Source of the DNA: Myxococcales bacterium
GTDB lineage: Bacteria; Myxococcota_A; UBA9160; UBA4427
Direction of reading: 5' to 3'
Assembly (NCBI GenBank): GCA_022563535.1
Contig: JADFNE010000039.1
Span: 1 to 40,232 of the forward strand
DNA length: 40,232 bases
Within the stretch, counting starts at the first letter, position 1; each line of letters opens with the position of its first letter. The notes beneath the pieces were generated by a model that saw only the letters and a program-made list of their open reading frames with translations, was not told where the DNA came from and did not search any database. Below, piece after piece: positions 30,582 through 37,660 of this stretch. Both the position numbers and the translations under genes were made by a program.

Positions 30582-31450
30582 GCAGCTCCGAACTCCGAGC
30601 GTTGCTGTCCCAGCACGGGCTGCACCTGCGCCGGGAGTTGGGCCAGAACTTCATCGTCGAGACGCAGGTTGCCGAACGCCTGGCCGAGCGAGCCGGCATA
30701 GAAGCGGGGGACAGTGTCATCGAAGTCGGTACGGGTCTCGGCATGTTGACCCGCGCCCTGGCCAAACGCGCCAAGTTTGTGCTCAGCCTCGAGATCGATT
30801 CGGGTCTCGCCCGGGTGGTACAGGAAGAGGGGCTGCTGCCAGAGAACGTAAGACTGCTTCACGCGGATGTACTCAAGCAGGATCTGGGCGCGCTGATTTC
30901 ACAGCTCGAACAAGAGCAAGGCGGCCCCGTCCGACTTGTCGCCAACCTGCCGTTTTCATCCGCTACGCCCCTGATGCGGCGCTTGCTCGACCACCGACAC
31001 GCATTGATCGACTGGTCGGTGATGTTGCAAATGGAAGTCGCGGACCGGTTGTTCGCACCGGTGGGTTCGCGCGACTACGGTTCGTTCGCGGTACTCCACC
31101 ACTTGTGTGTCGAGCTCGAAGGCCGACTCGAACTCGTCGCCAAGAGCTTCTTTCCGGTGCCGCGGGTAGATTCCGCATTCGTATGTGTGCGCGCCAACAC
31201 TCGATTGAATCTGGCCCCGGGTGAGCTGCGCAAGGTCGAACGCGTCGTGCGGGCGGCGTTTGGCAAGCGACGCAAGACCCTGGAGAACGCCCTGCGCGGC
31301 GGTGGCCTGGGTGTCGAGCGCGACGAATTGCGCGCCGTGCTCGAGCGCCTCGCAATCGATCCGCGCGCTCGCGCCGAGACGATTCACCCCGAAGCATTTC
31401 TCGCGTTGGCGAAGGGGCTGTGGCCGGGAGCTATGAATGGAGTCGAGTGA
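30578..31450 (+). CDS. rsmA: 16S rRNA dimethyladenosine methyltransferase
   Basis: A 290-residue KsgA/RsmA enzyme. It has the N-terminal RRELGQNFI, the SAM motif VIEVGTGLGMLT, the acidic LEIDSG, the catalytic NLPFSSATPL, and the C-terminal SFFPVPRVDSAFV. It dimethylates A1518/A1519 of 16S rRNA during small-subunit maturation. The ATG overlaps the tsaD stop. The last 14 bases overlap the next small gene. Confidence 0.95.
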   Translation: MSSSELRALLSQHGLHLRRELGQNFIVETQVAERLAERAGIEAGDSVIEVGTGLGMLTRALAKRAKFVLSLEIDSGLARVVQEEGLLPENVRLLHADVLKQDLGALISQLEQEQGGPVRLVANLPFSSATPLMRRLLDHRHALIDWSVMLQMEVADRLFAPVGSRDYGSFAVLHHLCVELEGRLELVAKSFFPVPRVDSAFVCVRANTRLNLAPGELRKVERVVRAAFGKRRKTLENALRGGGLGVERDELRAVLERLAIDPRARAETIHPEAFLALAKGLWPGAMNGVE

Positions 31451-31709
31451 AGTCCTGGTAGCCCTGTTGGAACTGGCCGGCGAGGTGAATCTCGAGGTGC
31501 GGATCTTGCGCGGCCTGAACTCTGCAGACACCGAATTCCCTCCCACCAGCTCCTGCTGTCGCGTGAAGGGAAAAGTTTGGGTCGTGCTTTCCCCAAACGA
31601 TCCCGTGGCTTTTCACATCGAGGTGCTGAGCCAGGCGCTGAGAAGCGAAGCCGGGACAGTGCTTGCGGATCGCTACTTGCCGCCCGCAATTCGTCAACTC
31701 CTGGACTGA
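31437..31709 (+). CDS. Small hypothetical protein downstream of rsmA
   Basis: A 90-residue protein of unknown function. It starts inside the rsmA gene (14-base overlap, different frame), so it is likely translated by coupling. The composition is ordinary for this genome: VLVALLELAGEVNLEVRIL, a CCRVKGKVWVV strand with two adjacent Cys, and a C-terminal helix. No signal peptide or membrane helix. It could be an rRNA-related partner, but there is no evidence beyond position. Confidence 0.6.
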   Translation: MESSEVLVALLELAGEVNLEVRILRGLNSADTEFPPTSSCCRVKGKVWVVLSPNDPVAFHIEVLSQALRSEAGTVLADRYLPPAIRQLLD

Positions 31710-32216
31710 GTTAGCCGCCGGGCTCCATCTTTTCTTGACCTGCACAGCCGGGTCCGTAAAGCTCCCTGAGCCGAGGGGAAACGTCCTGGACGAACCGCAT
31801 CGGCGCCCAGCACGACCGAACGAGAAACGAACCCGGGGCCGCAACGAACCGAACCACGCGACCCCAAAGAGACAAGTCAAGAGGTCCTACATTTCGGACC
31901 GGGCGTTACGCACCCGGACCAAGAGAACGACGACGCCTCGACATCGCCCGCTCACGGGGACTACGCCATTCGCATCATCAGCGCGATAGGCGAAGAATCC
32001 CCAAAGAGATGCTTGGATCCAGCAATGGACCGAGACGGGGGTGAGAAGAGGAGGGATCGGAAGCCTCGTTCCCCCTTTATCTGCGCCTCCGGACTGTGCA
32101 TCTGCATCTGACAGTCACCGGTAGGCGTTTTTTGTTTTCTGGAGCCTCGACCCGAGCGAATGTCGCATGGGCGGGGACTGGTGCGAAGCGTCCGCCAAGA
32201 GCGGAGGCAACCCATA
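31710..32216 (+). other. Structured non-coding stretch before panB
   Basis: About 500 bases with no supported coding gene. A promoter-like pair TTGACC (31735) and TAAAGC (31757) is spaced by 16 bases. Several hairpins follow (GGGGCCGC with GCGACCCC at 31835-31865; GGTCC/GGACC at 31883-31900; CCGGG/CCCGG at 31899-31917; GGGGA/TCCCC around 31957-32001). The stretch closes with the strong terminator at 32084-32138. CGAACC occurs four times (31791, 31828, 31845, 31850). It may encode a small RNA of about 370 bases or be a long trailer of the rsmA transcript. Confidence 0.45.
32084..32138 (+). terminator. Intrinsic terminator upstream of panB
   Basis: Three stacked stems (CGCCT/AGGCG, CCGG/CCGG, ACTGT/ACAGT with small bulges) and a 13-base loop are followed by TTTTTTG. 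It is a textbook intrinsic terminator on the plus strand, 80 bases before the panB start. It ends whatever is transcribed from 31.4-32.1 kb, so panB must have its own promoter or rely on readthrough. Confidence 0.8.
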
Positions 32217-33047
32217 GTGTCCACCGTAACGACTGCGTCAGCAAAGCGAGAGCATCGTATTACCGTCCGTTCCCTGGCCGCGCGCAAGCGCCGCGGGGAG
32301 CCCATCTCGATGCTCACCGCATACGACTTCACTTTTGCCCGAATCTTCGATGGCGCCGATATCGACCTGTTGCTCGTGGGAGACTCCCTGGGCAACGTGA
32401 TTCAGGGAGCGGATACGACGCTTCCGGTGACCATGGACGAGGTCATCTACCACACCCGGCTGGTGGTTCGCGGGACGAACCGCGCCCTGGTGATCGGTGA
32501 CATGCCCTTCGGCAGCTTTCAGGTCTCTCCCGAAGACGCGGTGCGCAACGCGATTCGCCTGGTGAAAGAAGGCGGGGCCGGGGCGGTCAAGCTCGAAGGT
32601 GGGGCCAAGATGGCCGAGACCATCGAGCGCATCGTCAACGCGGAGATTCCGGTGATGGGACACGTGGGTCTCACGCCTCAAGCGGTTCACCGCATGGGTG
32701 GCTACCGAGTGCAGGGCCGCGGCGAAGCCGGGCGTCTACAAGTGCTCGACGATGCACGCGCGGTGCAAGAAGCGGGGGCCTTTGCGGTGGTGCTCGAAGG
32801 CATCCCGGCGGATCTCGCAAAGGAAGTGACGGCCGAGCTGATGATTCCGACGATCGGGATCGGTGCCGGCAGCGACTGCGACGGCCAGGTGCTCGTGATG
32901 CACGACATGCTCGGTCTCAACGATTGGTCGCCAAGCTTCGCAAAGCAGTACGCGAATCTCGGTGCGCTGGCATCAACGGCCGCGCGGGCGTATATCGACG
33001 AGGTCACGAATCGCAAGTTCCCCGACAAAGAACACTCGTACGAGTAG
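32217..33047 (+). CDS. panB: 3-methyl-2-oxobutanoate hydroxymethyltransferase
   Basis: A 276-residue PanB, the first committed enzyme of pantothenate synthesis (adds a hydroxymethyl group from methylene-THF to ketoisovalerate). Motifs present: [53 protein letters not shown] and [15 protein letters not shown] with a following HDMLGL. The GTG at 32217 is chosen because GGAGG lies 9 bases before it; the frame is open to 32160. panC follows after 45 bases. Confidence 0.95.
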
Positions 33048-33092: not shown

Positions 33093-33989
33093 ATGGACAT
33101 TATCCGCACAACGCGCGAGTTACAGGAACGTTCGGATCGCGATCGGGCCCGAGGCCAGACGATCGCGTTGGTGCCGACCATGGGCGCGCTTCATCGTGGC
33201 CACCTTTCGCTGATCGCTTGTGGGCGAGAGCGGGCCGACCAGGTTTGGGTTTCGATTTTCGTGAACCCGACGCAATTCAATCTCAGTGAAGATTTTGAGA
33301 GTTATCCGCGCAACTTCGAAGCCGACGTCGAGAGTTGTCGGGCGGCGGGGGTGGACGTGATCTTCGCCCCGACGCCCGACCAGCTCTATCCCGAAGGCGC
33401 CGAGACCTGGGTCGAGGTGGGGAAGATCGCCGAGCCGCTCTGTGGCGCGACCCGACCGGGACATTTCCGCGGGGTCGCCACCGTGGTTTCGAGGCTCTTC
33501 CTCGCCGCCAAACCCCAGTACGCTGTGTTTGGCGAAAAAGATTACCAGCAGGTCGCCGTGATCCGGCGCATGACCCGGGATATGGGCTTCGATGTCGAGA
33601 TCGTAGCCGCCCCGATTCTGCGGGAAAAAGACGGCCTGGCGATGTCGAGCCGCAACGTGCGGCTGGGGCCGAAGGCGCGCACACAGGCGTGCGTGCTCAT
33701 CCGCGCAATCCGCGGCGCGCAGCGCGCGGTCGCAGCGGGGGAGCGAAACGCCGCAGCCGTAATCGAAGGGGTGAAGAAGACCATCAACGAGGCGCCCCAG
33801 GCCACTCTCGAATACGCCGAGTTGCGAGATTCAGAATCGCTTGCCGAAGCACCCGACCAACTTCTGGGGCCGTGCTTGCTGGCCATTGCCGTTCATTTTG
33901 CGCCCGACCCCGATGGTCGCGGAGCTGAAGTACGGCTGATCGACAACCGCGTGCTGCATCCGCCACGCCAGACCCCCGAATCGTCGTGA
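33093..33989 (+). CDS. panC: Pantothenate synthetase
   Basis: A 298-residue PanC that joins pantoate and beta-alanine using ATP. It has the nucleotide-binding VPTMGALHRGHLSLI (HxGH-type), the FVNPTQFN stretch, GATRPGHFRGVATVV, FGEKDYQQ and the KMSKS-like MSSRN. Slightly longer than the usual 280. It is transcribed with panB; panD (aspartate decarboxylase) is not in the window. Confidence 0.95.
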   Translation: MDIIRTTRELQERSDRDRARGQTIALVPTMGALHRGHLSLIACGRERADQVWVSIFVNPTQFNLSEDFESYPRNFEADVESCRAAGVDVIFAPTPDQLYPEGAETWVEVGKIAEPLCGATRPGHFRGVATVVSRLFLAAKPQYAVFGEKDYQQVAVIRRMTRDMGFDVEIVAAPILREKDGLAMSSRNVRLGPKARTQACVLIRAIRGAQRAVAAGERNAAAVIEGVKKTINEAPQATLEYAELRDSESLAEAPDQLLGPCLLAIAVHFAPDPDGRGAEVRLIDNRVLHPPRQTPESS

Positions 33990-34080
33990 CCTCGTCTATC
34001 TAGTCCAGTAAGTAGGCCAGGTGATGGGAATGGGGGCCGCCCGGGGCGCTCGGTCCGCGACGGGCTACCCTCGGCGCGTC

Positions 34081-34584
34081 ATGGCCAACAAGAAGAAATC
34101 AGACAAGAAAAATGCCGACGGCAGGCGAGTGATCGCAACCAACCGTCGCGCGCGCTTCGAGTATGAAATTGTCGATCACTTCGAGTTTGGCATCGTGCTC
34201 GAGGGGCCCGAAGTGAAATCCCTCCGCGAAGGGCGCGCGAACCTCGGCGATGCCTACGGGATCGTGCGACGGGGCGAACTCTATCTCGAGAAGCTGCACA
34301 TCAGTCCCTATGAACCGGCGACCCGGGCCAACGGTGACCCCCAGCGCGAACGCAAGCTGTTGGCGCACCGCCGAGAGATCAAGCGCTTGTACGGAAAGGT
34401 TCGGGAGCGCGGCCTGACGCTGGTCCCACTGAGCTTGTATTTCAACGCAGAGGGTCGAGTCAAAGTCGACCTCGCACTCGCTCGCGGCAAACACACCTAC
34501 GACAAGCGCGAGACCATCAAACAGCGAGACGCCGACCGGGAGGCCCAGCGCAGTCGGCGCCGAGGCGGATCCCAGCGGAGGTAG
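34081..34584 (+). CDS. smpB: SsrA-binding protein SmpB
   Basis: A 167-residue SmpB with the OB-fold core NRRARFEYEIVDHFEFGIVL, the GPEVKSLREGRANLGDAY stretch, the ISPYEPAT turn, and the basic C-terminal tail that enters the ribosome. It binds tmRNA and carries it to stalled ribosomes. The N-terminus has a Lys-rich extension (ANKKKSDKKNADGRR). The ssrA gene lies 2.7 kb downstream on the same strand. An ATG at 34081 was preferred over upstream starts because the conserved domain begins shortly after. Confidence 0.95.
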   Translation: MANKKKSDKKNADGRRVIATNRRARFEYEIVDHFEFGIVLEGPEVKSLREGRANLGDAYGIVRRGELYLEKLHISPYEPATRANGDPQRERKLLAHRREIKRLYGKVRERGLTLVPLSLYFNAEGRVKVDLALARGKHTYDKRETIKQRDADREAQRSRRRGGSQRR

Positions 34585-37293: not shown

Positions 37294-37660
37294 GGGGGCG
37301 ATCGGCTTCGACGGGTGGTCGAAGGTGAGCGCTGCGTGTCGACGTTGTACCACCGTCGTTAAAGAAGGTTCAAATGTTGGTAGCATTTTATCTGCCGACG
37401 ATAACTACGCTCTCGCTGCCTAGCAGAAACTAGGTTAGCGGGCTCTCGTCCGTGACGTCTCCTAGCGGGTCGCGAGAGTCATCAGGAGACTGGCTTCCGA
37501 GCGCTGCTAGACCGTATCCGGAAGCGAGACCCATGTGTAGCTAGGTTGCACTTGCTCCGTCTTTGCGGCCGGTGCAACCGAAACTAAGCAAAGACTACAC
37601 ACGTAGACGCGTTCTCTGGGCGCCATGCGGACGCGGGTTCGATTCCCGCCGCCTCCACCA
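37294..37660 (+). ncRNA. ssrA: Transfer-messenger RNA (tmRNA)
   Basis: The 367-base RNA begins GGGGGCG (37294-37300), which pairs with CGCCTCC before the terminal ACCA (37657-37660), making the 7-pair acceptor stem of the tRNA-like part. The T arm GGACGCGGGTTCGATTCCCGC is present in pieces at its 3' end. The short tag frame ends at TAG (37421-37423) and encodes ADDNYALAA, a proteobacterial type of degradation tag. tmRNA with SmpB rescues ribosomes stalled on broken mRNAs. Its last 38 bases and one base beyond recur at 38368-38406. Confidence 0.95.

Follow-up and report, generated by a model that had tools for sequence, protein, structure and literature searches.

The intergenic stretch 31710-32138 of a Myxococcales contig (JADFNE010000039.1, assembly GCA_022563535.1, whose 40,232 analysed nucleotides are here denoted the window) is very probably the cis-regulatory 5' leader of the vitamin B5 gene panB and of panC, a diverged pan RNA with a long spacer that is joined to a transcription terminator. 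The stretch fills the gap between the stop codon of a 90-codon ORF (31437-31709) and panB, whose start, a GTG at 32217, is conserved among relatives. The upstream genes, ksgA and the 90-codon ORF downstream of it, are read in the same direction as panB. The elements of the locus are as follows.

31735..31762, plus strand: candidate promoter, TTGACC (31735-31740) and TAAAGC (31757-31762, a weak -10) separated by 16 nt
31770..31804, plus strand: H1, the 5' hairpin, with the outer stem GCCGA/UCGGC and the bulged A before UCGGC kept and the inner part degenerate in the genus
31898..31917, plus strand: second hairpin, CCGGGCG-UUACG-CACCCGG, by eye the counterpart of the CCCGG..CCGGG hairpin of relatives
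31926..31949, plus strand: conserved linker AACGACGACGCCUCGACAUCGCCC, from alignment A1 (see below), whose CGCCC (31945-31949) would form the 5' strand of a proposed stem, P1
32010..32037, plus strand: pan hairpin, positions 61-87 of the RF01749 model, with both diagnostic bulged A's and covarying in relatives
32037..32043, plus strand: G-rich tail GGGGGUG, the proposed switch strand (P1, antiterminator or mid hairpin)
32037..32075, plus strand: mid hairpin GGGGG..CCCCC, from the fold, which occupies the tail too; CCCCC at 32071-32075
32084..32138, plus strand: intrinsic terminator CGCCUCCGG...CCGGUAGGCG-UUUUUUGUUUU, -20.2 kcal/mol, with a 5' arm (32084-32092) complementary to the tail
32203..32213, plus strand: panB ribosome-binding site GGAGGCAACCC, read from the sequence
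32217..33047, plus strand: panB, GTG start (TIGR00222 panB, 331.9 bits; PF02548)
33093..33989, plus strand: panC (TIGR00018 panC, 293 bits), the next gene of a presumed operon with panB

The sequence-only reading had described this stretch as about 370 non-coding bases upstream of panB, and had proposed for it a possible small RNA gene. Its non-coding character was confirmed. The longest same-strand ORF inside the leader (31663-31989) is not a conserved protein, as it aligns to relatives of the genus only with stops, gaps and breaks, and similarity in the other tested frames traces to overlaps with orf90 or panB; a protein-coding leader was accordingly rejected. The claimed structured RNA was borne out as well, since 31765-32138 folds better than its shuffles (-141.6 kcal/mol, z -3.15), with 1 of 100 shuffles equally good, and the claimed strong U-tract terminator is present as a hairpin followed by a U-tract at 32084-32138; a simple terminator scanner missed this hairpin, probably owing to its long loop. 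Four copies of CGAACC (31791, 31828, 31845, 31850) and one CGAACG (31817), to which the same reading had drawn attention, do exist but are not remarkable. For this hexamer, chosen afterwards, P = 0.0004, whereas some hexamer attains four copies in 15% of simulated leaders. The repeat therefore has no hexamer-wide significance and, by eye, it is not conserved in relatives; we rejected it as a functional element. The 90-amino-acid ORF at 31437-31709 is without a Pfam match; most of the relatives examined have it conserved in this place, after ksgA and ahead of the panB leader. Where relatives of this panB carry a name, they are MAGs of Myxococcota and Deltaproteobacteria, for example DUBZ01000026.1 and JASMLK010000102.1.

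The promoter-like element fared less evenly. It is weak in the window, where TTGACC/TAAAGC is only suggestive and a promoter scanner run over the stretch found none, but its position is conserved in relatives: of 73 aligned leaders, 53 carry TTGACN-N15-18-YANNNT there, where shuffles would give 0.08, and the window is not one of the 53. This position bears on whether the terminator is an ordinary one belonging to the upstream ksgA-orf90 genes, with panB read from an unregulated promoter behind it and the conserved hairpins incidental. The upstream genes do run in the same direction and the terminator could end their transcripts; however, the conserved promoter position lies upstream of H1, which places the terminator inside the panB transcript, a scan between the terminator and panB showed no promoter-like site, and the hairpins covary. 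We consider this arrangement extremely unlikely.

At the gathering threshold, Rfam matched nothing in the stretch 31710-32138 and reported only a tmRNA at 37294-37660 (tag ADDNYALAA), about 2.7 kb from an smpB-like ORF (34021-34584, smpB recognised by eye). With a lax threshold, the pan motif, RF01749, matched at 32010-32037 with 20.3 bits (gathering score 36.2; E 1.9 in 2 kb). The stretch had been said to resemble no RNA family, a statement that this sub-threshold match does not bear out; an Rfam match had also been named as evidence against a new small RNA gene, and it was found in this sub-threshold form. Taken alone, the match in the window would be at chance level, and it is the context that decides. 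Two further sub-threshold matches were discarded as chance: P4 lies on the minus strand (31933-32002), opposite to the leader, and its 17.6 bits are far below the cut-off of 37 (E 0.024 with 491 bases searched), and mir-483 is a microRNA family.

The pan motif was described as a stem that carries two bulged A's and precedes panB, panC or panD, most members having two hairpins per RNA (Weinberg et al. 2010, PMC2864571). A search of 97 genomes with RF01749 gave matches in 35 at E<=10, none of them over the cut-off, and tblastn located panB just downstream in nearly all fetched loci, those without it being L010, which has panD instead, L016 and L020. Across the phylum the gathering cut-off was reached in 0 of 377 genomes; Bacillus subtilis, searched as a control, scored over it. 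Both bulged A's of the pan hairpin, present in the window, are kept in relatives, one in 70 of 70 rows and the other in 69 of 70. Regular expressions for this hairpin at first failed on most leaders, and it was finally located by model placement. A tandem pan-like RNA of 28.9 bits in a genome of the same phylum (L010, minus strand 725-827, G090) precedes panD (TIGR00223).

Such a diverged match might instead mean that the leader RNA is of a new class and shares a short hairpin with pan by chance. One hairpin only matches Rfam, below threshold, and the long conserved parts, linker and terminator, are absent from the RF01749 model. This reading is very improbable given the pan gene context, the two bulged A's and a second hairpin of the same geometry, and given intermediates that match the full RF01749 model at 28.9-30.3 bits, namely L010 (before panD), L011 and L198 (both before panB).

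The leader recurs in relatives. Alignment A1 comprises 19 compact leaders, all outside the window's genus and drawn from 26 in which both hairpins had been located, and a covariance model made from it (R1) scores the window at 34.4 bits (E 3.9e-4 across the genome to which it belongs), the next matches having E 3 or worse. These 34.4 bits come mainly from the pan half; R1 placed the 5' part wrongly, at 31916, and we rejected this placement of the 5' hairpin as an artefact of a long insert. In the class, 77 of 90 genomes matched R1 at E<=1, and in the phylum 72 of 377 matched at E<=0.01, 70 of them among the order's 79 genomes and 2 among the remaining 298. Two members of the genus (G001 and G003) were missed by R1 at E<=0.01, and their leader is present by DNA similarity. 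The only two matches outside the order (L198/L229 in G151 and L228 in G232; E about 0.005-0.007) both lie before panB. Among the fetched R1 loci, panB is downstream in 65 of 75; two of the other ten run off contigs and eight have E 0.06-0.97. Leaving out rows with a misplaced pan segment (L182, L186, L187) and a second, opposite-strand match of L033 gave a set of 69 leaders.

These counts bear on a trans-acting small RNA gene that would sit upstream of panB by happenstance. An own promoter-like element and a strong terminator do bound a structured non-coding RNA, as such a gene would have them. Against it, among the class's 71 R1 matches at E<=0.01, panB follows directly on the same strand in 69, and the remaining two reach a contig end; the G-rich tail is complementary to the terminator arm; and in G151 the start codon of panB comes just after this tail. 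A trans-acting gene thus appears very unlikely, and a separate gene is the part of the earlier claim that falls, since the element precedes panB. What stands is a discrete structured RNA spanning roughly 31766-32133, well supported by the conserved promoter position, the hairpins and the terminator. As a by-product of the cis-regulatory leader, its prematurely terminated form could act in trans.

H1 is the counterpart of the first pan hairpin and is strongly supported in relatives, where tandem hairpins of the pan geometry are found. H1 and the pan hairpin share a 5' bulge followed by UC..GA, five base pairs, and a bulged A on the 3' side; of 70 rows of H1 in relatives, 67 have A as the 3' bulge, and 51 have A and 19 have C as the 5' bulge. 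The window's H1 is weak and its spacer much longer. A model of H1 (R2) puts its 43 positions at 31766-31808 with just 10.5 bits, E 0.75 over the window, for which reason H1 is assigned there mainly by position and outer stem. In this genus, and also in L005, extra sequence with its own hairpin (31954-32003 in the window) separates the linker from the pan hairpin; this insert makes the spacer longer and keeps the model from recognising H1.

An alignment of relatives, proposed in the sequence-only reading as a check for covariation, demonstrated that the two hairpins covary beyond shuffles. In the structure-fitted alignment of the relatives' hairpins, covariation was 0.271 against 0.146 in shuffles (0/500) and 0.036-0.085 with slid partners, and 15 of 23 pairs had changes on both sides. 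MAFFT alignments gave 0.224 against 0.134, and 0.281 against 0.162 for H1 alone. By eye, C-runs resembling that of the mid hairpin were seen in relatives of the same genus.

The G-rich tail lies directly 3' of the pan hairpin and reads GGGGGYG in most leaders. The same terminator was recognised in 58 of the 69 leaders and none in 11; two or more of the 58 are doubtful (L173, L178), and the pattern overlooked at least one genuine terminator (L003). In 50 of the 58, pairing of the tail with the terminator 5' arm ranked in the top 5% of nearby windows. Covariation between tail and terminator is modest: permuted tails lose energy, and 39 of 2000 permutations were as good. The pairing is kept with other bases in the sister order, GAAGGCGC with GCGCCUUC in L026 and similarly in L023. 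The leaders thereby combine, on the evidence of sequence, a terminator with a mutually exclusive antiterminator pairing, the arrangement of a transcription attenuator, and a terminator/antiterminator switch is likely.

Besides the terminator arm, the tail may have a further partner in the proposed stem P1, formed with CGCCC, which is unproven. A column test of the tail against RCCC upstream of the pan hairpin gave 28 G-C, 8 G-U, 16 A-U and 0 A-C of 52, a count that ignores kinship; it used the 52 of 60 matched rows with C or T at the tail position, and the motif was picked as the N(A/G)CC(C/A) nearest upstream of the hairpin, a choice that may be mistaken in some rows. An energy permutation test of P1 was negative (512 of 2000 as good). 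The PanB tree yielded only three independent changes on supported branches, none contrary, with p at best 0.25. In the fold of the window, the tail is also bound in the mid hairpin with CCCCC 32071-32075.

The strand that follows the pan hairpin has another setting in other lineages. In G151 the hairpin is followed by GGAGGUGUACCAUGG, and the tail, GGAGGUG, lies just before the panB ATG, where it appears to be the Shine-Dalgarno sequence of panB. In L179 and L181, 22-28 nt separate the end of the hairpin from the panB match, and a search for a terminator found none. Among Clostridia, 28 of 79 genomes scored over the RF01749 cut-off, and in L220 and L224 a purine-rich ribosome-binding site was seen by eye directly after the hairpin. 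Because one strand serves two types of output, these leaders point to the tail as their controlled part. The pan RNAs L220 (46.1 bits) and L224 (40.1 bits), both over the cut-off, stand directly before the S component of an ECF transporter (PF12822), and their 3' tail extends into its ribosome-binding site. PanT is a possible candidate for this component.

We propose that transcription starts just before H1, that H1 and the pan hairpin, having the same geometry, would form the sensing part, and that the tail would be the output strand. A free tail would pair with the terminator 5' arm as an antiterminator, and panB-panC would be read. A signal that holds the pan hairpins would keep the tail in a stem with the upstream CGCCC or, in this genus, in the mid hairpin; with the tail sequestered, the terminator would form and transcription would stop near 32133. 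At full length the antiterminator would disrupt the pan hairpin at its base, consistent with binding and antitermination being alternatives. That the pairing favoured by the signal is the repressing one seems a reasonably good bet. Its most likely form would be feedback, in which a product of the pantothenate/CoA pathway represses the genes and is sensed by the RNA itself or via a dimeric RNA-binding protein. We infer that the leaders terminate transcription in cells and that the signal is a protein or a metabolite.

Binding sites of a dimeric protein were suggested for the pan motif by Weinberg et al. (PMC2864571). The variable distance between H1 and the pan hairpin speaks for two sites of such a protein over one compact pocket, although a metabolite could still be the signal. 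A more specific version, which we hold to be rather unlikely, would make the Myxococcota pan RNA a metabolite-sensing riboswitch for a compound of the pantothenate/CoA pathway, its two bulged-A hairpins binding cooperatively and the shared G-rich strand acting as antiterminator in one lineage and as Shine-Dalgarno sequence in others. CoA was named as a notably absent riboswitch ligand in a 2022 review (PMC9971707), a gap that would be filled if the RNA directly binds a CoA-pathway metabolite.

RNA-seq studies of Bacillus methanolicus (PMC4342826) and Paenibacillus riograndensis (PMC5670726) list pan elements in 5' UTRs of panB operons. A literature search, made mostly in papers outside subscription, found no study of the mechanism or signal of pan RNA. 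Dozens of leaders in the order have an explicit expression platform, a feature absent from the excerpted text of the original pan description (PMC2864571), and so provide a concrete, testable switch. At its cut-off, Rfam misses this whole group of leaders.

Transcription-attenuating riboswitches and protein-controlled leaders consist of a sensor part, a strand for alternative pairing and an intrinsic terminator, with a biosynthetic gene downstream. The panB leader, as read here, has all of these parts, and its proposed switch strand seems to be a Shine-Dalgarno sequence in another lineage. Like the pan motif, it has a bulged-A hairpin, which in the window aligns to positions 61-87 of the RF01749 model, with panB-panC downstream (NCBIfam). 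The conserved linker and the terminator that pairs with the 3' tail are additions of the Myxococcota leaders, absent from the pan motif description as excerpted (PMC2864571). These leaders also differ from RF01749 in scoring below its cut-off in all 377 genomes of the phylum, in a diverged first hairpin (5' bulge A or C) and in the spacer, which by model placement is about 58-140 nt in most leaders and about 205 nt in the window, against 31 in the RF01749 model. Two similar hairpins at a very variable distance make the panB leader less like one compact aptamer.
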